A DNA stretch of 20,384 bases, from positions 1 through 20,384 of the IMG/VR virus record IMGVR_UViG_3300014050_000176; one strand, written 5' to 3'. Each line of letters begins with the position of its first letter. The first letter of the stretch is position 1. The position numbers were made by a program, and so were the translations under genes. Origin of the DNA: a virus. The notes under the pieces were generated by a model. It had not been told where the DNA came from. It saw only the letters and a list, made by a program, of their open reading frames with translations, and did no database searches. Shown here one piece after another: positions 2 to 12,320 of this stretch.

Positions 2-666
2 AATAAAGATAAATTATATTTTTTAAATATACATAAAAATGGTGGAAAGGTGGTTCATGACAAGATTATTAATAAAGTATTTAATTCTTTAAATGGCATA
101 CCAATTGAAACTCAAAATAAAGGATGGGCACCAGTAACAGATGGTACATATGTATTATCTGCATTTAGACATCCAGTTCTAAGAACAGTTAGCCACTACT
201 TTGATCATAAGAGTAAAGAAATCGCTAATTCTAATACTTCAATAAATGAATTTGCTATGTGGTTTGACAAAAATATAGATGCTTTATCTAATTATCAATT
301 AAAGAATATGTTTTATGATAAGCCTTCAGATAATAATTTTTTGATGGATGAAGATTTTAAATCTCTTAAGTTACCAGTAAAGATGTCTGAGATTAAAAGC
401 AGAATGAGAAGATTTGATGCTATTTTTAAAATTGATAATGTCAGGCGGGAAACTTTAATAGGCATATCAAATGATATTTTAAAATCATTAATAGGGATTT
501 AGTACCAGCAAATACATCAAAAATAGAATATAATCAAAATATACATTCAAGGGCCTTTTCTCTGGCTCTGCCAGCAGAAATTAAAAAAGAAATAGAGCTT
601 GTGAATGAGACCGAAATGAATATATATGAAACCAATTCATTTTTTCAGAAATTTGTGATACAATAA
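2..666 (+). CDS. Sulfotransferase-family protein, 5'-partial, with an apparent -1 frameshift
   Basis: The reading frame is open from the left edge (nt 2), so the start lies upstream. The visible N-terminus contains IHKNGGK (about nt 29-49), which fits the 5'-phosphosulfate-binding loop of sulfotransferases. FRHPVLRTVSHY (nt 164-199) fits the 3'-phosphate-binding motif with its conserved Arg and Ser. Such enzymes move sulfate from PAPS to a hydroxyl, usually on a glycan. The first frame stops at 500-502, giving 166 visible residues. The -1 frame then continues without a stop to 664-666 and encodes a family-like C-terminus ending in NETEMNIYE and a short aromatic tail. A -1 slip at T TTA AAA (478-484) would join the halves into at least 221 residues. 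Programmed recoding, a natural mutation and a sequencing indel cannot be separated here. A phage origin follows from the neighbours; the acceptor is unknown. Confidence 0.72.
478..484 (+). other. Candidate -1 slippery heptamer in the sulfotransferase gene
   Basis: In the incoming frame the codons read ATT TTA AAA TCA, so the heptamer is T TTA AAA, an exact X XXY YYZ site. The -1 frame entered here runs 60 residues to 666, whereas the zero frame ends 16 bases later. The join gives DILK-IINRDL with no unnatural residues between. I see no convincing stimulatory stem-loop or upstream Shine-Dalgarno, which weakens the programmed reading. Confidence 0.45.
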
Positions 667-4169: not shown

Positions 4170-5750
4170 ATGGAGTATATGGAAGAGAACAACTCAGAGC
4201 AAATCGAACTTTCTAATGTTGCGGATTGGATGAAATTTAATAGTCCAGTAGAGCAGACAACAGAAGACCCATTTAAAATGCAGGGTGAAGATTTAGCTAA
4301 AGTTTCTGGATTGGGAACAGCTTTCCGTAGAAAAATGAATCGTGAATTTACAAAAAGATTCCAGGGATTAGATGGCGCTAAAACACAACAGAATTTATTG
4401 CAGCAGGCTATTACTGGATATGCAATGTTCGATCTTGTGGAGCCCACATATAACTTAGATTATCTATCAAGAATTTATGAAATTTCTCCATACAACTATG
4501 CAGCAATTAATGCAAAGGTTTCTAATATTGTAGGACTCGGTTTTGATTTTGTTGAAACAAGAAAAACTAAAGATGCGTTCGATGGAATTAATAATGATGT
4601 TCAGTTGGAAAGAGCACGTAGAAAGCTAAATAGATTACGCCAAGACTTGATGGATTGGCTTGAGAATTGCAACGAAGAAGAAACCTTTAAAGAGACACTG
4701 ATTAAGTTTTATACAGATGTAGAGGCAACAGGAAACGGATACCTTGAAATCGGAAGAACAACTTCTGGCAAGATTGGGTATATCGGACACATCCCAGCTA
4801 AGACAATGAGAGTTCGTAGACTTCGTGATGGATTTATTCAATTGCTTTATGGTAAGGCTGTTTACTTCCGCAACTTTGGAGATCAAGAAACTCTTAACCC
4901 AATCGCTGGTCAAGAAGACCGCCCTAATGAAATTATTCATTATAAGAAATATACCCCTACAAATAATTATTATGGAATTCCAGATATTATTGCATCTCAA
5001 AATGCTATGGCTGGAAATGAATTTGCGGGCAAGTACAACCTAGATTATTTTGAGAATAAGGCTGTACCTCGTTATATTATTACAGTTAAGGGAGCTAAGC
5101 TTTCCCCAGAATCAGAAAGAAAGCTACTTGAGTTTTTCCAGGTTGGTCTAAGAGGAAAGAACCATAGATCACTTTATGTTCCACTTCCTGCAGATAGTCC
5201 AGATGCAAAGGTAGAATTTAAGATGGAGCCAATTGAGGCGGGTTCTCAAGAATCTTCATTTAATAAATATCGTCAAGCAAATAGAGACGAGATCCTTCTT
5301 GCTCATAGAGTTCCAATTAATAAAATTGGTGTCCCAGAAGGCGTATCTTTGGCAAATGCTAGAGATGCAGATAAGACATTTAAAGAGCAAGTTTGTCGTC
5401 CAGCACAGGATATTTTAGAGAAGAAATTAAATAAAATTATTGAAGAAATGACAGATGCATTAGCACTTAAATTTAATGAATTAACTTTAACTGATGAAGA
5501 TACTCAGTCTAAGATTGATGAGCGTTATTTAAGAATGCAGGTAATTACACCTAATGAGGTTAGAATTAGAATGGGTCTAAATCCTATTGATGGTGGGGAT
5601 GAACCAGTTCAATTAAAGCCACAACAGCAGGCAGAAGCCAGAGCACAAGCTGGACAAACTAGAAACAGAGATGCAGAAAGATCTGCAAATTCACCAGATG
5701 TTTCTGGAGAGGGCAGAAATGCCCAGGGTGATGGCAGACAAGTTGAGTAA
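4170..5750 (+). CDS. Portal protein (HK97/PBSX-type family)
   Basis: A 526-residue protein that would form the dodecameric portal ring at one capsid vertex, through which DNA is packaged and ejected. Supporting features in order are the helical lead LSRIYEISPYNYAAINAKV near residue 100, IGYIGHIPAKTMRVRR and then NEIIHYKKYTPTNNYYGIPD (wing/stem region), ENKAVPRYIITVKG near 295, QESSFNKYRQANRDEILLAHRVPINKIG near 358-385 (clip/crown-proximal part of the family), and ITPNEVRIRMGLNPIDGGD near 465. The last 50 residues are polar and Gln/Arg/Asp-rich, probably disordered. The start is the ATG six bases after GGGAG (4159-4163); a second in-frame ATG at codon 4 is less well spaced. Length and position just before the protease fit the family. 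No terminase is seen upstream in this window. Confidence 0.93.
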   Translation: MEYMEENNSEQIELSNVADWMKFNSPVEQTTEDPFKMQGEDLAKVSGLGTAFRRKMNREFTKRFQGLDGAKTQQNLLQQAITGYAMFDLVEPTYNLDYLSRIYEISPYNYAAINAKVSNIVGLGFDFVETRKTKDAFDGINNDVQLERARRKLNRLRQDLMDWLENCNEEETFKETLIKFYTDVEATGNGYLEIGRTTSGKIGYIGHIPAKTMRVRRLRDGFIQLLYGKAVYFRNFGDQETLNPIAGQEDRPNEIIHYKKYTPTNNYYGIPDIIASQNAMAGNEFAGKYNLDYFENKAVPRYIITVKGAKLSPESERKLLEFFQVGLRGKNHRSLYVPLPADSPDAKVEFKMEPIEAGSQESSFNKYRQANRDEILLAHRVPINKIGVPEGVSLANARDADKTFKEQVCRPAQDILEKKLNKIIEEMTDALALKFNELTLTDEDTQSKIDERYLRMQVITPNEVRIRMGLNPIDGGDEPVQLKPQQQAEARAQAGQTRNRDAERSANSPDVSGEGRNAQGDGRQVE

Positions 5751-5761
5751 GGCTACTCAAC
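5742..5761 (+). terminator. Hairpin spanning the portal stop codon
   Basis: GTTGAGTA (5742-5749) and TACTCAAC (5754-5761) form a perfect 8-bp stem with an AGGC loop, and the portal TAA lies in it. Only a broken T-rich run follows (TTATTTGCCTTTT, 5764-5776), so it is at best a weak terminator. An RNA-processing or transcript-end-stabilising role is also possible. Confidence 0.45.
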
Positions 5762-5803: not shown

Positions 5804-7126
5804 ATGAATATTGAAAAATCTTATTGGTCTTCAAATGGCGACAATATCACATTGTCTGTGCCATTCACAAAAGTTAACCGTGAAAAGCGCACAGTATCTG
5901 GTTTTGCTACATTAGACAATATTGATCAAACAGGCGATGTTGTAACAGCAGAAGCAAGTATGAAAGCTTTTGAAAATTTCCGTGGTAATCTTCGTGAAAT
6001 GCATCAGCCACTTGCAGTTGGCAAGGTAGTATCATTTAAGCCAGAAACATTTTTCGATCCAATTTCAAAATCATTTTATAATGGCGTTTATGTAGATGCC
6101 TATATCTCTAAGGGTGCACAAGACACATGGGAGAAAGTTCTTGACGGAACATTACAAGGTTTTTCAATAGGCGGAAAAATTATTTCATCAGATAACGAAA
6201 TGAATAAAGCAACAGGTAAGTCAGTAAGATTTATTAAAGACTATGCATTGCTAGAACTTTCAATTGTAGATTCACCAGCAAATGAACTTTGCAACATTTT
6301 GTCAATTCAGAAAATGAACGGACAACTTGTATTCAAGGGTATGGCTGCAGATGTTGTTACAGAAAATATTTTTTATTGCGAAGATAGCGATTCAGTATTT
6401 ATGTCAACAGAAGCAGTATTCAATTCTCCAGTAACTGGAAAGCAAGCTACCTTGATTGGTTGGGTTGAAACTAACGATGTTAACAAAGCGAAAGAAATAG
6501 ATAATATTCTTGATTCATTTAAGAAGTCAAGATTTCCGTTGCCTGATACACAAACAATTGCAAAACAGGCAAACGCAGAAGGAGGTAATGAAGTGTCAGA
6601 AAACACAGAAAACGTAGCAGTTGAAGAAACACCTGCTGTCGTAGAAGAAGCAGCACCTGCGGAAGCAGCACCTGCTGAAGAAGCAGCACCTGCACCAGAT
6701 GCAGCACCAGCTGAAGACGCTTCTGCCGAAACTCTGGAAAAAGCAGCCGACGTATCAGAAGTTGAGGTTGATGAACCTGATTTTGCAAAGATGCTAGGCG
6801 ATCTAAAAGGCTTTTTTTCAGAAACACTGAATAAGGCATCTGAAGCAAATGCTGTACAGGTTTCAACAATCAAAGATACTGTTGAGACATTTAGCAAGAG
6901 CGTCGATGGAAGAATTTCAGAGTTGGCAGAACAATACTCAGTCTTATCAAAGGCTGTAGAAGATATCAAGAACACGATTGATGGCGTAGAAAAGCGTGTC
7001 GATGCAGTAGAATCAGAGACTGCAATTAAGAAGTCCTCAGACCTTGGCGGGTCTCAGGAAGTAACAATCAAAAAATCAAAGTGGAACGGTTCTTTCCTCG
7101 GTTCCGTAACAGAATTAATTAAATAA
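5804..7126 (+). CDS. Capsid maturation protease fused to a scaffold domain (XkdF/S78-like)
   Basis: The protein has 440 residues from the ATG at 5804. An in-frame TTG at 5768 would add 12 residues, but it has no ribosome-binding site and lies in promoter-like sequence. Residues 1-165 fit the HK97-type prohead protease fold: TVSGFATLDNIDQTGDVV, REMHQP with likely catalytic His67, GFSIGG with likely Ser121, and LLELSIVDSPAN with Glu151 as a possible third member. Residues 185-250 (ATLIGWVETNDVNKAKEI and flanks) resemble the region after the protease in XkdF-like proteins. Residues 264-315 are an acidic Ala/Pro/Glu repeat linker, and 320-440 are a coiled-coil, scaffold-like tail ending in a basic segment (KKSKWNGSFLGS). 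The enzyme would cleave scaffold and capsid precursors during head maturation. It sits between portal and capsid, as usual. Confidence 0.88.
   Translation: MNIEKSYWSSNGDNITLSVPFTKVNREKRTVSGFATLDNIDQTGDVVTAEASMKAFENFRGNLREMHQPLAVGKVVSFKPETFFDPISKSFYNGVYVDAYISKGAQDTWEKVLDGTLQGFSIGGKIISSDNEMNKATGKSVRFIKDYALLELSIVDSPANELCNILSIQKMNGQLVFKGMAADVVTENIFYCEDSDSVFMSTEAVFNSPVTGKQATLIGWVETNDVNKAKEIDNILDSFKKSRFPLPDTQTIAKQANAEGGNEVSENTENVAVEETPAVVEEAAPAEAAPAEEAAPAPDAAPAEDASAETLEKAADVSEVEVDEPDFAKMLGDLKGFFSETLNKASEANAVQVSTIKDTVETFSKSVDGRISELAEQYSVLSKAVEDIKNTIDGVEKRVDAVESETAIKKSSDLGGSQEVTIKKSKWNGSFLGSVTELIK
6593..7126 (+). CDS. Possible nested scaffold protein from an internal GTG start
   Basis: Inside the protease gene and in the same frame, GGAGGT (6581-6586, within AGAAGGAGGT) stands six bases before GTG (6593). 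This is one of the strongest Shine-Dalgarno sequences in the window. Initiation here would give 177 residues, equal to residues 264-440 of the long protein: an acidic Ala/Pro/Glu-rich start, helical coiled-coil segments, and a basic C-terminus that could bind capsid protein. The start falls just where the protease part ends. Lambda C/Nu3 is the classic case of a scaffold made by in-frame internal initiation in a protease gene. This would be the same arrangement, but the site could also be a chance Glu-Gly-Gly-coding match. Confidence 0.55.
   Translation: MSENTENVAVEETPAVVEEAAPAEAAPAEEAAPAPDAAPAEDASAETLEKAADVSEVEVDEPDFAKMLGDLKGFFSETLNKASEANAVQVSTIKDTVETFSKSVDGRISELAEQYSVLSKAVEDIKNTIDGVEKRVDAVESETAIKKSSDLGGSQEVTIKKSKWNGSFLGSVTELIK
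6647..6693 (+). repeat. Three direct repeats encoding an Ala/Pro/Glu linker
   Basis: GAAGCAGCACCTGC occurs exactly at 6647-6660, 6662-6675 and 6680-6693, with degenerate copies to about 6715. It encodes EAAPAE-type units joining the protease and scaffold halves. Length probably varies between relatives by slippage or unequal exchange. Confidence 0.8.
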
Positions 7127-7143
7127 GGTAGGTGAAATATAAT

Positions 7144-8193
7144 ATGAGTAATGAAACATTAGAGAAGGCAATCGCAGCAGGAACAACTGCAACAGCGACA
7201 TTTGCCTCAACTACTGGTGGTGCAGGAGTACACGTAGCTAGCGAAGCTGGCAACGGCGGTCTTCTAAACCCAGAACAATCAGCCCGCTTTTTAGATTATA
7301 TGTTCGACGCAACCGTAATTGGAAAAGTCGCACGTACAGTCCGAATGAGAGCTGACACTACAGAGATTGATCGTATGTCCGTTGGTGAGAAACTTATGAC
7401 TCTCGCAACAGAAGGAGATACAACTGGCTCAAACGCAGCAGTTACTTTCTCAAAGATCTCTCTTTCAACCAAGAAACTTCGCTTGAACTGGGAGCTTTCA
7501 ACTGAGTCTCTAGAAGACAACATTGAGGGTCCAGATCTAGAAGATCATATTGCCCGATTGATGGCAACACAGGCAGGTAACGACATTGAAGATGTAATCC
7601 TTAACGGAGATACATCTCTAACTGGCGACAACCTATACAAGTCATTTGACGGTATTGTAAAGAAGGCAAAGGCTAGCGGACACGTTGTAGCTGGTGCAGG
7701 CGCAGGAGTATCTCGTGAGCTTTTCAACAAGGCTCTAAAGGCACTTCCACGTAAGTACAAGCAACGCCGTGGCGACCTTCGCTTCTTGGTAGGTTCAAAC
7801 CTAATCCAAGATTTCCTATATGCTAATAGCATTGGAACAAATCAAACAATTCCATCAGATATCGCTTCTGGCGTTATCCGTGGTACAACTCCAGGACTTG
7901 GTGGTCCAGCAGGATACGTAGCACCATTCGCATTCGGTATTCCGATTGTTGAAGTTCCTATGCTAAAAGAAGCACAGGATGGTACATATTCAGGCGAGAC
8001 TGGCGATCACGGAGATATCCACTTGACATTCCCAAATAACGTAGTTATTGGTATCAAGCGTGATGTAACCGTCTATCGTTTCTTCCAGCCACGTAAGGAC
8101 TCAATCGAGTACACAATGTATACTCGTGTTGGCGTTCAAATTGAGCAGGCAAACGCATGGGTAGTTGTTAAAGACGTTAAGATTGCTTCCTAA
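7144..8193 (+). CDS. Major capsid protein, HK97 fold
   Basis: A 349-residue protein starting at the ATG at 7144, eight bases after GGTGA in GGTAGGTGA. A GTG at 7132 would add four residues and is less well spaced. The first 45 residues are flexible and Gly/Ala/Thr-rich. GLLNPEQSARFLDYMFDATVIGKVARTVRM resembles the N-arm/E-loop entry of HK97-like capsid proteins, and LRLNWELSTESLEDNIEGPDLEDHIA (about residues 117-142) the spine helix. ALPRKYKQRRGDLRFLVGSNLIQDFLY and GIPIVEVPMLKEA fit the A- and P-domain strands, and DVTVYRFFQPRKDSIEYTMYTRVGVQI closes the fold. It forms the icosahedral shell. Arg codons here are mostly CGT/CGC, unlike the AGA-rich neighbours, which suggests selection for high expression. 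A strong terminator follows 21 bases after the stop. Confidence 0.93.
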   Translation: MSNETLEKAIAAGTTATATFASTTGGAGVHVASEAGNGGLLNPEQSARFLDYMFDATVIGKVARTVRMRADTTEIDRMSVGEKLMTLATEGDTTGSNAAVTFSKISLSTKKLRLNWELSTESLEDNIEGPDLEDHIARLMATQAGNDIEDVILNGDTSLTGDNLYKSFDGIVKKAKASGHVVAGAGAGVSRELFNKALKALPRKYKQRRGDLRFLVGSNLIQDFLYANSIGTNQTIPSDIASGVIRGTTPGLGGPAGYVAPFAFGIPIVEVPMLKEAQDGTYSGETGDHGDIHLTFPNNVVIGIKRDVTVYRFFQPRKDSIEYTMYTRVGVQIEQANAWVVVKDVKIAS

Positions 8194-8214
8194 TTAATAG
8201 GATTTAGATCTGCT

Positions 8215-8248
8215 AAAAGCCCCCTAAATTAATTTTTGGGGGGCTTTT
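8215..8248 (+). terminator. Strong intrinsic terminator after the capsid gene
   Basis: AAAAGCCCCC (8215-8224) pairs perfectly with GGGGGCTTTT (8239-8248) across a 14-base AT-rich loop. The 3' arm supplies the U-run, followed by CATTTT. It lies in a 107-base gap and would cap the capsid transcript. Confidence 0.88.
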
Positions 8249-8280
8249 CATTTTAATTTAGTAATGCTATAATTGTTTAG
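8245..8280 (+). promoter_or_regulatory. Extended -10 promoter directly after the terminator
   Basis: TGC-TATAAT gives an exact extended -10 (hexamer 8268-8273) with a predicted start near 8280. A TTTTCA -35 (8245-8250) lies at a 17-base spacing inside the terminator's T-run. The next ATG is about 21 bases downstream of the predicted start, with AGGAG (8290-8294) six bases before it. All elements are well spaced. Confidence 0.7.
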
Positions 8281-8300
8281 AGTAGAAATAGGAGATATAC

Positions 8301-8696
8301 ATGTCATTTGAGACATTAAAAGTATCTGAACTAAAAAAGATTGCAGAAGATTTTGCAGTCGATACAGATGGTCTAAAAAATAAGGCCGACATTATTTCCG
8401 CCCTCGCAGAAGAAGGCGTGACTTGGTCTGTATATAACAAGACCATGGATAAGATGGAAGAAGAAGATATGTCAGTAGAAATCCTGCCAAAGTTTGATCC
8501 AAAGGCGGAACAACCAGAAAACACAGTATTAGTAAGAATGACTAGAGATAACTTTAGGTATGATATTATGGGATTTACGTTCACAAAAGAGCATCCATTT
8601 ATTGCAATGAGTAATGAACAAGCGCAAGAAATTTTTGATAAGGAGGAGGGCTTTAGATTAGCAACTCCAAGGGAAGTCCAGGAGTACTACAACTAA
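8301..8696 (+). CDS. Head-associated protein with N-terminal SAP/Rho-N-like motif
   Basis: A 131-residue acidic protein. Residues 5-41 (LKVSELKKIAEDFAVDTDG, then KADIISALAEEGV) have the helix-extended loop-helix pattern of SAP, HeH or Rho N-terminal motifs, which bind nucleic acid. Such motifs are often seen in small proteins coded just after phage capsid genes. Residues 70-131 (NTVLVRMTRDNFRYDIMGFTF, HPFIAMSN, FRLATPREVQEYY) form a separate small domain that I also recognise next to capsid and connector genes, without known function. The start is well set by AGGAG and its own promoter. Possible roles are a head decoration/fibre protein or a DNA-contacting head protein; neither is shown by the sequence alone. 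Confidence 0.75.
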   Translation: MSFETLKVSELKKIAEDFAVDTDGLKNKADIISALAEEGVTWSVYNKTMDKMEEEDMSVEILPKFDPKAEQPENTVLVRMTRDNFRYDIMGFTFTKEHPFIAMSNEQAQEIFDKEEGFRLATPREVQEYYN

Positions 8697-8710
8697 TCTA
8701 CGCCTTTTAA

Positions 8711-9694
8711 ATGGCAGAGATATTAATAAATAGTCAATCACCAATAACACATAGAGTTTTTTGGAATGGCGAAGTAGCAAATGCAGATTCGCCTCCAACT
8801 GTTGGTTTATATGATGTTACAGAAGATCCTGCTGTAAATCCAGCAATTAGTCCGACTCAATTACTTACAACATTAAACTCTCAGTTAGATGAAAATAATC
8901 CTGGAAACTATATAGTTAATATTCCATATCAATATACAGATAGAAATAAAACTTTAAGATTAAAGTGGAACTACTTTGTTAATGGAACTAATGTAAAGAA
9001 ATCAGATGATGTTTATGTTATAACGCCGTATGTAGATTTTAATCATGCCACAGACCTTGGCTTTAGTACAGATTCATCTGATCCAGAATATAAATCATAC
9101 AAGGATCTTATTTTAGCGGAGAGATATGCTCGTAAACAAATAGAACAATATACGGGTCAAAATTTTTATTTATATGATGATGTTGTAGTTGTATATGGAT
9201 ATGATTCAGATATCCTTCCATTGCCTGCTAAAATTGGAGAGCTTCATGAGTTATATGCCGACGATATTTTGTTATTAGATAATATTAATGAAATTGATAA
9301 TTGGAATTATCCAGTAGAAATAACTCCAACTGGATATGGAATTAAAATTAATCGTGCAAATATGTTAGATAACACTGTTTATATTGCTAACGGCATGGTT
9401 CCTCCATCTATTAACAGTTATGGAGGAGGAGTTTTTAGATCTGGAGTTCCATACAAAGTTCAAGGTAAATTTGGTTGGGAAAAGGTTCCAGATGAAGTAG
9501 AGCTGGCTGGCATAGAATTAATGAAAGATTTTTTTGCTAAAGACACTGTATGGAAAAACAAGTATATAAAAACTATATCTACATTTGACTGGGATTTTGA
9601 ATTTACAAGTGATGTTCATATGGGCACTGGAAATGCTTATGCTGATAGATTATTGGCAGATTATGTCTTAGTCACAAAGGCAGAGATTATATAA
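8711..9694 (+). CDS. Head-tail connector/adaptor with N-terminal beta domain
   Basis: A 327-residue protein. Residues 110-150 (DLGFSTDSSDPEYKSYKDLILAERYARKQIEQYTGQNF) match the helical opening of phage head-tail adaptor proteins of the gp6/gp15 kind. Later parts (YYPVEITPTGYGIKI-like strands and VPYKVQGKFGWEKVPDEVELAGIELMKDFFAKD) are also typical, the last being the long helix that packs against the portal. Residues 1-105 form an extra beta-rich module (ITHRVFWNGEVANADS, NPGNYIVNIPYQYTD) resembling an Ig-like fold. The protein would dock below the portal and seal packaged DNA. The ATG at 8711 has no clear ribosome-binding site and lies 14 bases after the previous stop. The final base overlaps the next ATG. 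Confidence 0.75.
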   Translation: MAEILINSQSPITHRVFWNGEVANADSPPTVGLYDVTEDPAVNPAISPTQLLTTLNSQLDENNPGNYIVNIPYQYTDRNKTLRLKWNYFVNGTNVKKSDDVYVITPYVDFNHATDLGFSTDSSDPEYKSYKDLILAERYARKQIEQYTGQNFYLYDDVVVVYGYDSDILPLPAKIGELHELYADDILLLDNINEIDNWNYPVEITPTGYGIKINRANMLDNTVYIANGMVPPSINSYGGGVFRSGVPYKVQGKFGWEKVPDEVELAGIELMKDFFAKDTVWKNKYIKTISTFDWDFEFTSDVHMGTGNAYADRLLADYVLVTKAEII

Positions 9695-10122
9695 TGAACG
9701 ATTTAATAGACTCAGTCTTATCTATGAGTCTAGATGTTTATAAACAATTTGAGACACAAGATCCAGACACTGGAGCAATTGTTCGTGAGTGGACATATTA
9801 TAAAACAATTAATTGCCACGCTAAAGGAGTTATAAGCAACTCTGCAACAACTAGATCTAGCGATAAACAATTGTTTTCAAATAAATATACCAATGATCAA
9901 ATTATTCAAGTAAGAACTTCAGAAAGATTAACTGCAAGAGAAAAAGTAACAAACATAAGAGATAATAATGGTAATGTAATTTGGCACGAAATTAACTATC
10001 CAAATGAAACACCAACCGTATTTGAAGTTATGGGAACAACTCCAGTCACTGACCCATTTGGCAGTGTAATTGCATACAACTCATCTATGAAGAGATCGGA
10101 GAACCAGCAAATTGGACAATAG
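9694..10122 (+). CDS. Probable head closure (stopper) protein
   Basis: A 142-residue protein whose ATG overlaps the connector's TAA (TAATG), so translation is coupled. The strand-rich sequence MSLDVYKQFETQDPDTGAIVREWTYYKTINCHAKG, followed by FSNKYTNDQIIQVRTSERLTAREKVTNIR, has the small beta-barrel pattern of head-completion or stopper proteins of long-tailed phages. These seal the connector until the tail joins. The assignment rests on position between adaptor and tail-completion genes, on length, and on the DxxTGxxxREW and sExLtaREKVtNIRd patterns. I did not recognise a specific named homologue. Confidence 0.62.
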   Translation: MNDLIDSVLSMSLDVYKQFETQDPDTGAIVREWTYYKTINCHAKGVISNSATTRSSDKQLFSNKYTNDQIIQVRTSERLTAREKVTNIRDNNGNVIWHEINYPNETPTVFEVMGTTPVTDPFGSVIAYNSSMKRSENQQIGQ

Positions 10123-10894
10123 CGGATTACTGGTTCAAGCAGCAAGCGGACTAGAAAGAATGATGTACGCAAATCAAAACGGACCTTTAAAAGATAGCAC
10201 AGTTGCTCAGATATCAGCCTTTGTATACTATGAGGCAGCAGTCATATCTAAACTAACAACTAATGCTCAATTTAAAACACTATTCACAAAAACAATGTTT
10301 GACCAAATAAATACAGATTTTGGTAACTATATAGATGCATTAGCTAGATCAAAACCTAAATCTTTACATCATGTATATGAATGGAAAAGAACTGGTAATA
10401 AAACGGCAAGGTTATTTAAGTTAAATAAAATATCAGAAGAAGGCCTATCGTTTAAAATTGATTATGAGTTCTTGCCATCTAGGTCTATGGTCCCTGCACC
10501 AAGTAACAGACGTAGACATATGTTTGCAAATAAAGCTTCAATAATGGAAGAAGGAAAGCCATTGGTTATTAGGCCTAAAAATGCAGAACGATTGGTTTTT
10601 GAAATTGATGGAGAAACAATATTTATGCCTAAAGGACAATCTGTAACAGTTAAAAGACCTGGTGGTTCTGCTTCTACTAATCAATTCACACTTGCTCACT
10701 CAAGATTTTTTAGTGGAAATTTAATTAACGCCTCAATTAAAAATTCTGGGTTTCAAAGAATATTCAATTCAAGCATAACAAAGGCGCTTAGGGTTCCTAA
10801 TAATATTAAAAAAGTACAGTATTCATTTTCTGCAAATGCAATTAGATCTCAAGCAGATGCAGCACTGGTGGCTTCATTTGGAGGTGCAATGTGA
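10112..10894 (+). CDS. Neck/tail-completion-like minor structural protein
   Basis: A 260-residue protein reading from TTG at 10112, with CGGAGA (10097-10102) upstream and an 11-base overlap with the previous gene. ATG codons at 10160 and 10163 are alternatives with weaker sites. Residues 1-75 are helical (ASGLERMMYANQNG, ISAFVYYEAAVISKL). Then come LHHVYEWKRTGNKTARLFKL and a beta-rich middle (LSFKIDYEFLPSRSMVP, ERLVFEIDGETIFMPKGQ). In actinobacterial phages such a protein, with HHVYEW near the centre, lies between the head closure and tail terminator genes. The slot is that of HK97 gp10-like tail-completion proteins. The precise role is inferred from position. Confidence 0.58.
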   Translation: MDNSGLLVQAASGLERMMYANQNGPLKDSTVAQISAFVYYEAAVISKLTTNAQFKTLFTKTMFDQINTDFGNYIDALARSKPKSLHHVYEWKRTGNKTARLFKLNKISEEGLSFKIDYEFLPSRSMVPAPSNRRRHMFANKASIMEEGKPLVIRPKNAERLVFEIDGETIFMPKGQSVTVKRPGGSASTNQFTLAHSRFFSGNLINASIKNSGFQRIFNSSITKALRVPNNIKKVQYSFSANAIRSQADAALVASFGGAM

Positions 10895-11403
10895 CAGCTG
10901 ATTATAAATTAGATGCAATGTTAGAAATTCGTAAATATTTATGGAGAGAATTATATACCCGTAATATATTTGACGAAGAAGATTATTGGTCAGATAATTT
11001 AAATGAAAATATCATTCCAATTATTCCAGTTCAGCAAGCAGCTGAAATGAACCAGTTTTTAAGTGGCAAAAAACATATTGTTTATGACAAGATAGGCTTA
11101 TCTTATGAGGATAATTGGCTTATCTGTTGTGAGCAAATTATGTTTACTATATACTCCACATCTGTAGCCGAAATAAATGAGATTCGAAATTATATGACAG
11201 ATGAGTTTAGAAGGATGGACGAGTCTGCTAGGGATATAAACAAATGGCAAGGGCTGTCAGATAAATTTAAATTTCACAGCATATGGATAGCCGACATTTC
11301 TCCAACAGCTCCTTCGGAGGAAATACAGGGATTTTTTTCAGCAGAGGTCATATTAGAGGTCAAGTATTCCAGAATTACAGACAACGTGGGCAGGTTTCGC
11401 TGA
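10891..11403 (+). CDS. Probable tail terminator protein
   Basis: A 170-residue protein with a GTG start that overlaps the previous TGA (GTGA), preceded by GGAGGT (10880-10885) at five bases. IIPIIPVQQAAEMNQFLSGKKHIVYDKIG near residues 38-66, DNWLICCEQIMFTIYSTSVAEINEIRNYMTDEFRRMDESARDIN near 70-118, and the strand FFSAEVILEVKYSR at the end follow the alternating strand-helix order of tail terminators, which cap the tail tube and join it to the head. Position before the tail tube agrees. It ends in RFR, and a 118-base non-coding stretch follows. Confidence 0.68.
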   Translation: MTADYKLDAMLEIRKYLWRELYTRNIFDEEDYWSDNLNENIIPIIPVQQAAEMNQFLSGKKHIVYDKIGLSYEDNWLICCEQIMFTIYSTSVAEINEIRNYMTDEFRRMDESARDINKWQGLSDKFKFHSIWIADISPTAPSEEIQGFFSAEVILEVKYSRITDNVGRFR

Positions 11404-11521
11404 GGTTTGCCTTTTTACCTATTATGGAATAAACTTGTCCTAAGAGGAAAGAAGCCTAGCCAGCTTTAATTTAAGATTTTAAAATATATATATATATTAA
11501 AATATAGGAGGTAACAAAACT
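11404..11521 (+). promoter_or_regulatory. AT-rich leader before the tail tube gene
   Basis: This 118-base gap holds a weak terminator-like GGCA/TGCC pair before TTTTT (around 11390-11416), a possible promoter (TTGCCT 11407-11412, 17 bases, TAAACT 11430-11435), and a near-palindromic AT tract (TTTTAA at 11477-11482, TTAAAA at 11497-11502, alternating TA between). AGGAGG (11506-11511) then stands ten bases before the ATG. I cannot say which AT-rich hexamer is a real -10. Confidence 0.4.
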
Positions 11522-12229
11522 ATGGCACAATCCGTAGGTAATGCTAAAAATATTCTCGTCGGTGCATCTCCGTTGTTCTTGTCAACTATTGACGTTAACG
11601 ACGCAGACTACATCTCAAACGCAGAAGCAGGCGTAGCAATTGCATCAGGCGCAGGAACAGTAGGCGTCCCAGCATTTGCAACAGGCGTATCATACACATC
11701 AACACTAAACGCTGTTGATCAGGAAGCAGGAAAGTTTGGATACCGCAACGTTGGTTTTACTAACAACGGTCTTCAAATCACCTATAACCCAACATATGAT
11801 TCAGTAACTGTAGACCAGTTGCTTGATACAGCTAAGCTGTTCAAGTCTGCAATGGAAGTTATGATTGCAACAGAAATGTCAGAAGGTACTCTCGAGAATA
11901 TCGCAGCAGTATTTGGACAAGCAGCATCAACTCTTTCAACAACAGGAACTGGAACATCTAAGAAAGATACTCTAGGGCTAGAAGCAGGTGCATTGGGTGC
12001 AGCTCCAACAGAGCGTCAACTAATTGCAGTTGGAAAGGCTCCAACAGCATCTTCAACAAACTCTGAGCGTGTATATTATGCACGTCGTGTATTGTCAGTA
12101 CAACAGTCACAGTTCTCACTTGCTCGTACAACTCCAACCACATTCCCAGTAACATTCCGTCTTCTACCAGACGCCAGCTATGCAGGCTCTGAATACGGTA
12201 AGATTATTGACCGTGTATTGGTAGCATAA
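11522..12229 (+). CDS. Major tail tube protein
   Basis: A 235-residue protein beginning MAQSVGNAKNILVGASPLFLS. The pattern of GASPLFLSTID, then GYRNVGFTNNGLQITYNPTYDSVTVDQLLDTAKLFKSAMEV, fits tail tube proteins of long-tailed phages, in which a beta-sandwich with one helix stacks as hexamer rings. EMSEGTLENIAAVFG is a common element of the family. The gene has a perfect AGGAGG site, is followed within 25 bases by a very strong terminator, and prefers CGT/CGC for Arg and C-ending codons like the capsid gene. All of this suits the second most abundant virion protein. Position before the frameshifted chaperone and tape measure supports the call. Confidence 0.9.
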   Translation: MAQSVGNAKNILVGASPLFLSTIDVNDADYISNAEAGVAIASGAGTVGVPAFATGVSYTSTLNAVDQEAGKFGYRNVGFTNNGLQITYNPTYDSVTVDQLLDTAKLFKSAMEVMIATEMSEGTLENIAAVFGQAASTLSTTGTGTSKKDTLGLEAGALGAAPTERQLIAVGKAPTASSTNSERVYYARRVLSVQQSQFSLARTTPTTFPVTFRLLPDASYAGSEYGKIIDRVLVA

Positions 12230-12252: not shown

Positions 12253-12282
12253 GTAAAACCCCCAATTTATTGGGGGTTTTAC
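12253..12282 (+). terminator. Strong intrinsic terminator after the tail tube gene
   Basis: GTAAAACCCCCAAT (12253-12266) is the exact reverse complement of ATTGGGGGTTTTAC (12269-12282). This forms a 13-bp stem with a four-base loop, with the U-run in the 3' arm. The AAAA-C5 / G5-TTTT core matches that of the terminator after the capsid gene. Confidence 0.9.
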
Positions 12283-12284
12283 AT

Positions 12285-12320
12285 TTGTATTAGTATATTC
12301 TTTTTAGTATAATGATTATG
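12285..12320 (+). promoter_or_regulatory. Promoter after the tail tube terminator
   Basis: TATAAT (12308-12313) lies 17 bases from TTGTAT (12285-12290), with a predicted start near 12320. The chaperone gene's AGGAGG follows at 12331-12336. The -35 is poor, but the -10 is perfect and the layout repeats that at 8245-8280. Confidence 0.6.

Follow-up and report, generated by a model that had tools for sequence, protein, structure and literature searches.

The window, by which we mean the whole 20,384-base virus record analysed here, carries structural genes that all lie on the + strand, in an order that runs from portal to tape measure (Table 1); part of the gene names were taken from synteny with annotated Streptomyces phages. 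The capsid protein is 56-57% identical over ~99% of its length to the best listed Streptomyces phage capsid proteins. Between the stop codon of the capsid ORF and the next ORF lies a gap of 107 nt that holds a hairpin (T1) and a promoter-like block (P1), and further candidate elements (T2, P2, T3 and P3) flank the tail-tube gene. A tRNA search of the window found none, and the whole window gave no match to Rfam at gathering thresholds. Rfam membership was also considered for the interval 8180-8310, where matches were sub-threshold only, mostly to sRNA and leader families; we took this as no membership.

Table 1. Genes and candidate regulatory elements of the structural module, in window coordinates
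Feature	Position	Strand	Basis or remark
Portal gene	4170	+	Gene order
Protease gene	5768	+	Gene order
Major capsid protein gene	7144..8193	+	phrog_1623; ORF stop at 8193
T1, putative intrinsic-terminator hairpin	8215..8248	+	14 pairs, 6 GC pairs
T1 U-tract, UUUUCAUUUU	8245..8254	+	Directly after T1 stem
P1 -35-like hexamer, TTTTCA	8245..8250	+	Shares bases with U-tract; 4/6 -35 matches
P1 extended -10, TGC + TATAAT = TGCTATAAT	8265-8267 + 8268-8273	+	Predicted start near 8280
Ribosome-binding site AGGAG of next gene	8290..8294	+	Sequence; ATG at 8301
First gene of putative restarted unit	8301..8696	+	phrog_9487, function unknown; ORF start 8301
Adaptor and connector genes	8711-11403	+	Gene order
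T2, weak hairpin	11388..11412	+	Overlaps stop codon of upstream gene; z -1.1
P2, TTGCCT-17-TAAACT	11407..11435	+	Promoter-like, ahead of tail-tube gene
Leader, GAGGAA..AAGC-CTAGCCA-GCTT	11444..11466	+	Predicted 5' end of tail-tube mRNA
Major tail (tube) protein gene	11522..12229	+	phrog_2175, Ig-domain protein
T3, putative terminator hairpin after tail-tube gene	12253..12282	+	z -5.2
P3, TTGTAT-17-TATAAT	12285..12313	+	Directly after T3
Gene in tail-chaperone position	12344	+	Gene order
Tape measure gene	13020	+	Gene order

The first-pass annotation of this DNA had described a hairpin, a T-run and an extended -10 element within the 107-base gap, and both the coordinates and the description hold. 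The stem that it gave as 10 bp is indeed perfect over its outer 10 bp (AAAAGCCCCC/GGGGGCTTTT), and we found four more pairs inside it. The fold of 8200-8260 has a free energy of -22.7 kcal/mol (z -3.3), and 2 of 200 shuffled sequences fold as well. T1 thus has the sequence of an intrinsic terminator, a GC-rich hairpin that leads straight into a U-rich tract; the tract is imperfect, UUUUCAUUUU being broken, and the four U with which it begins also pair with the A-tract on the 5' side. In P1, a TGN motif stands directly before TATAAT, as in extended -10 promoters, and 17 nt separate TATAAT from TTTTCA.

We compared both kinds of element with chance expectation in the window. In this AT-rich DNA a simple promoter scan found 71 sites where 68.9 were expected, which is chance level; P1 is among the six sites with at least 10 of 12 matches, and is the only one of the six that has the TG. 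The case for P1 therefore rests on conservation and not on the scan. A simple terminator scan was mildly enriched, with 19 sites against 10.5, and the entries at 8215 and 12253 have the most GC pairs. A strict scan for a hairpin plus T-tract, with thresholds chosen once the elements were known, returned two sites on the + strand, one after the capsid gene and one after the tail-tube gene, and one on the - strand; in 1000 dinucleotide-shuffled versions of the + strand such hairpins averaged 0.083. Terminator-then-promoter pairs occur twice on the + strand and never on the - strand, and the 1000 shuffles together contained two. When applied to the + strand of 13 long relatives (of the 80 described below), the strict scan marked the capsid boundary in all 13, and in all 13 it marked a second site ~4 kb further on, where the tail-tube gene ends; two of the 13 have one extra strict hairpin near the left edge.

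Our main set of relatives consists of 80 IMG/VR loci that were found by their capsid protein. The extended -10 sequence TGCTATAAT is kept in the gap after the capsid gene in 79 of the 80, and of the 80 sequences that have it (the window and 79 relatives), 79 place the -10 at precisely 23 nt from where the U-tract begins. At 17-nt spacing these 80 sequences have the hexamer TTTTCA in 76 cases, TGTTCA in two, and TTTCCC and TTTTCC in one each. A hairpin is present in 42/42 distinct capsid gaps. One locus (L017) has a different hairpin and neither TGCTATAAT nor TGNTATAAT; by reading, TGG TATACT stands in place of the promoter element. In a second (L071) the hairpin likewise differs and the -10 is retained. 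Since their hairpins differ, these two loci were left out of the alignment of capsid gaps and of a hairpin-anchored test, in which 79 of 81 sequences could be placed and TGCTATAAT was at the same distance in 79/79. With the hairpin as anchor, the 20 nt before TGCTATAAT are 0.89-0.90 identical in pairs of sequences whose four-fold degenerate capsid sites are only 0.46-0.58 identical, and we conclude from this difference that the promoter block has been selected rather than merely inherited. When sequences are chosen by TGCTATAAT instead, the 29-nt block is 0.92-0.93 identical, 9 of its 29 positions being invariant by that selection. Identity drops to ~0.5 in the 20 nt after the -10. The freshwater capsid stem has slight compensatory change, at one of six consensus pairs. 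The fusion of a terminator-like hairpin to an extended -10 promoter, which had been proposed from the window, is thus backed by its sequence and by strong purifying selection.

Two further sets of loci are consistent with this placement. At least 118 loci were fetched by the promoter pattern; 116 carry the match right after the MCP ORF, and in the other two the contig ends no more than 32 bases from the match. These loci were not used to estimate the frequency of the promoter, and L081, the window itself, was left out of the count. The second set was fetched by the leader element of the tail-tube gene (see below); from at least 120 stretches the 66 new loci were analysed, of which 38 have a capsid hit. 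It shares some contigs with the earlier sets, and across the sets several loci are the same contig twice. All 38 have TGNTANAAT no more than 200 nt behind the capsid gene, as TGCTATAAT in 30, TGATATAAT in seven and TGCTAAAAT in one.

We also examined 12 of the 209 phage records that have a capsid match. Ten of them are actinophages (seven Stanwilliamsviridae and three phages of Rhodococcus), and in all ten the capsid gene is followed by a strong hairpin that has a T-rich tail; nine of the ten also have TGNTANAAT there, with CGCTATAAT in Circinus, and the stems in their capsid gaps are unrelated to that of the window. In Vibrio phage D4 and Stenotrophomonas phage DLP5 the hairpin behind the capsid gene comes with no clear -10. 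From these comparisons, the position of the terminator looks to be the oldest part of the capsid boundary. The distance to the -10 is so short in LilMartin and Tomas that the stem would take up the place of a -35 at 17 nt. The proposal that the T-run doubles as the -35 is sustained only in part: 76 of the 80 sequences with the extended -10 have TTTTCA at 17 nt, but a -35 match is absent from L071 (with TTTCCC) and, by reading, from Streptomyces phages such as LilMartin and Tomas, all of which keep TGN-TANAAT. What seems essential in the capsid promoter is the extended -10, and a -35 role of the T-run would be optional. According to the available part of a report on phage K, which mentions no capsid terminator, a promoter element that is probably an extended -10 can offset a missing -35 there (PMC11598898).

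The window shares a syntenic structural module and a homologous capsid protein with the Stanwilliamsviridae, as judged from a 20-kb record. LilMartin, Tomas, Moab, Circinus, Muntaha, Coruscant and TunaTartare arrange their genes between portal and tape measure in much the same order as the window, with a hairpin in the capsid gap in 7/7 and TGNTANAAT behind the hairpin in 6/7. They differ from the window in that their hairpin sequences are unrelated to its own and in that 3/6 tail gaps have TAAACT for TATAAT; in addition, members of the Loccivirinae have extra genes between the capsid and adaptor genes. The tail gaps of the six Stanwilliamsviridae for which this region was fetched all contain a hairpin (6/6), followed by TATAAT in LilMartin, Tomas and Coruscant and by TGG-TAAACT in Moab, Muntaha and TunaTartare. 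None of the seven Stanwilliamsviridae records has a regulatory feature annotated at these gaps. In Coruscant (record L209, 6442-6909), the annotated start of the gene that follows the capsid gene lies within the capsid stop, so that this gene runs across the hairpin and the promoter; a downstream ATG is the likelier start.

The tail-tube gene is the second gene of the module that has a hairpin and a promoter-like block behind it. A hairpin is found in 63/63 distinct tail gaps, built from 48 different stems and often closed by GNRA-type loops, and a TTG lies exactly 17 nt from the -10 in 63/63. These counts derive from 91 loci, which gave 64 distinct 130-nt gaps and 63 after trimming to the -10, and they exclude loci on contigs that stop too soon. 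The -35 of P3 adjoins T3 and shares no U-tract with it, unlike the arrangement in P1. Ahead of the tail-tube gene, TTGCNT-17-TANNNT is found 5-12 nt before GAGG in 87/87 distinct upstream regions (hexamers are listed for 62). The -35 of P2 sits in the 3' arm of the weak hairpin T2. We considered T2 as a third terminator and ruled it out as unsupported, given its z of -1.1 and the ~4 pairs seen by inspection in one clade.

Directly downstream of P2 is a short conserved element. GAGG(N)AA, followed within 16 nt by CTAGCCA, is present in 87/87 distinct tail-tube upstream regions, and the predicted start of P2 would put it right at the 5' terminus of the tail-tube mRNA. Its stem changes on both sides between groups (AAGC/GCTT, GTGC/GCAC, GTGT/ACAC and TGCT/AGCA), and some of the freshwater loci do not form the outermost of the four pairs. 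By itself the fold is weak (z +0.45), so the case for this leader rests on its sequence and on the pair changes. A search with the leader pattern returned, among the matches listed, 66 new contigs, of which 61 carry it as a tail-tube leader, three look like chance matches and two end just inside the tail-tube gene. The leader is also present in six of the seven Stanwilliamsviridae examined, while Coruscant has an altered loop. Rfam gave no credible match to the leader. In 257 Gb of bacterial genomes the pattern had 73 matches, which is not above the chance level of ~270 that we estimated ourselves from 17 fixed bases and nine spacings.

Upstream of the capsid gene, no promoter common to most relatives was found in 41 distinct 170-nt or 45 distinct 300-nt sequences. 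The best candidate there, TGNTANNNT, falls within the protease gene at a distance of 233-243 nt and occurs in 15 of the 45 distinct sequences, and TATAAT occurs at -6 of the capsid gene in eight of the 45. A conserved stretch ahead of the capsid gene, at the 3' end of the protease gene, is coding. By reading of 41 distinct sequences, this end of the protease gene (~7105-7143, GGAACGGTTCTTTCCTCGGTTCC) is nearly invariant, at wobble positions too; an element overlapping the coding sequence ahead of the capsid gene and strong codon constraint are both possible explanations.

We used the C-ending share of FYHNDI codons as a measure of codon bias. In the window it is 0.55 for the capsid gene, 0.53 for the tail-tube gene, 0.56 for gene 12344 and 0.41 for gene 12754, while the other genes measured have values of 0.10-0.29, including 0.14-0.29 for the five genes at 8301-11403. 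Mean values over 17 long relatives are 0.59 for capsid, 0.48 for tail tube and 0.43 for 12344 (n=16), against 0.18-0.37 for the others, including the five genes at 8301-11403 (n=15 for the tape measure). This pattern fits two bulk genes that are each closed by a terminator, and the boundary proposed for the 107-base gap indeed separates a capsid gene of marked codon bias from connector genes that lack such bias. Codon bias reports protein demand, not transcript level. The suggestion that the connectors are restarted at a lower level goes beyond these values: portal and protease, which lie upstream of T1, are also weakly biased, and gene 12344 is strongly biased. The weak bias of portal and protease before T1 and the bias of 12344 after T3 thus leave a role for transcription in setting levels unproven.

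Potential readers of these promoters were sought in 10 long phage records. PF04542 (Sigma70_r2) matched in 0/10, with a control that matched in 10/14, and PF00940 (T7-type polymerase) matched in 0/10, with a control that matched nowhere either. PF04545 (Sigma70_r4) had weak matches below the cut-off in four of the 10 records, because of which a phage regulator is still a possible reader. Sites that combine TGNTATAAT with a GGAG no more than 30 nt further on number one to four per record in eight records of 87-120 kb, and some of them are far from the structural module by coordinate.

Tailed phages carry hundreds of capsid and tail-tube copies per virion and few connectors. From the sequences of the elements, their conservation, position and spacing, and the contrast in codon bias, we infer that the element after the capsid gene is probably a transcription-unit boundary, in which a factor-independent terminator is fused to a sigma70-type extended -10 promoter. 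Polymerase arriving from upstream would form the GC hairpin of T1 and halt in UUUUCAUUUU, ending capsid transcripts; at the DNA level, UUUUCAUUUU would be the upstream part of P1, with the -10 at a constant distance of 23 nt from where the U-tract begins, and host RNA polymerase would start a new transcript ~20 nt before the connector genes. The tail-tube gene would form a one-gene unit between P2 and T3, and P3 would restart a unit of chaperone and tape measure. The effect would be that the two bulk virion proteins are uncoupled from the low-copy connector and tape-measure genes.

An alternative possibility is that the hairpin chiefly protects or processes the 3' end of the capsid mRNA and allows much read-through, such that the promoter only tops up the downstream genes. 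The broken U-tract UUUUCAUUUU, the GNRA-type loops that are common in the tail copy, and the survival of hairpins through complete replacement of the stem (in L017, L071 and the 10 actinophages) all speak for this possibility. We nonetheless consider this unlikely, since in those copies that were read the stem runs into a T-rich tract, and a promoter straight behind it suits a unit boundary; moreover, in the available part of the report on Pseudomonas phage LUZ100, an apparent strong terminator is mapped at the same place (PMC10134795). It is also conceivable that the promoter sets timing rather than level, so that connectors become available earlier or later than the capsid gene product. The rarity of TGNTATAAT-GGAG sites marks them as special sites, and those outside the structural module would be compatible with a timing signal. 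Both copies are placed behind genes of high codon bias, which suits a rule based on abundance, and no temporal class is known for the sites; we regard control of timing as distinctly improbable. That a chance hairpin and a chance promoter match have been kept by shared ancestry alone is extremely improbable, despite the chance-level promoter scan, given that the promoter block is far more conserved than four-fold sites over 20 nt, with the last 9 invariant, that 1000 shuffles yielded no more terminator-promoter pairs than the real window has, and that the layout is kept at ~57% capsid identity with unrelated stems.

The reading as a terminator fused to a promoter has partial precedents. In T7, the capsid gene forms a unit with a local promoter and a terminator right after it. 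The apparent strong terminator of LUZ100 comes straight after its major capsid gene, and in the part of the source available the capsid gene has a local phage-specific promoter and the arrangement is called "similar to T7" (PMC10134795). The window resembles this type of capsid unit, by its sequence, in having a terminator immediately after the capsid gene; the 45 distinct 300-nt sequences upstream of the capsid gene gave no local promoter for it that most of them share, and a promoter-like site stands ahead of the tail-tube gene instead. As far as the LUZ100 source describes it, the promoter of that phage is phage-specific and serves the capsid gene, whereas P1 would be a sigma70 extended -10 promoter that lies behind the terminator and shares bases with it. 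A terminator right after the capsid gene is a known design, in LUZ100 and T7, and the element in the window is a variant of it. For the tail tube, the available part of a report on the P100-like Listeria phage CKA15 describes mapped intrinsic termination sites after the tail-tube and tail-chaperone genes, with the chaperone gene and CKA15_114 bounded by a start site and a termination site (PMC12282133). CKA15 is thus like the window in its termination after the tail tube; it differs in belonging to another phage group, and that part of the report describes no fused terminator-promoter. These mapped exceptions (the LUZ100 capsid gene and the CKA15 tail tube, each as far as its source covers it) qualify the view, taken in the first-pass annotation, that phage structural genes are as a rule read as one long late transcript.

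We found no description in the open-licence literature of the fused form, its fixed geometry, a sigma70-type promoter in this role, its use at both bulk genes, or conservation that extends from metagenomic to Streptomyces phages. To our knowledge, how phages that rely on host polymerase set the ratio of bulk proteins to connectors has rarely been mapped. The boundary elements are recognisable in the sequence, they come back at precisely the two bulk genes, and they have persisted across large divergence; stop-and-restart would probably allow the two bulk building blocks to be made in amounts separate from those of neighbouring genes. Because the conservation reaches cultivable Streptomyces phages, the prediction can be tested directly there. 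The leader element, in turn, is a concrete RNA motif. We tentatively suggest, as a broader scheme that may well not hold, that a large phage group (metagenomic relatives of the Stanwilliamsviridae) splits its structural genes into abundance classes by fused terminator-promoters that share U-tract and -35 bases, with the released polymerase perhaps passed to the promoter below, and that tail-tube mRNA opens with a previously undescribed RNA element acting in cis, made up of AGAGG(N)AA and a hairpin whose loop is CUAGCCA, that stabilises the message or controls its translation.

Lastly, three other features of the window were recorded. An 8-bp perfect hairpin at 5742-5761 (z -3.0) lies across the end of the portal gene and is followed by CATTATTTG; it is not a strong terminator. 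The ORF that is open at the start of the window (2-502) may encode a sulfotransferase-type protein, judging from its motifs. Residues 3-39 of the product of gene 8301 (window 8301-8420) have a weak match to phrog_3281, an endonuclease VII family (E 1.2e-4), and we take the same stretch to resemble a SAP/HeH-type domain.
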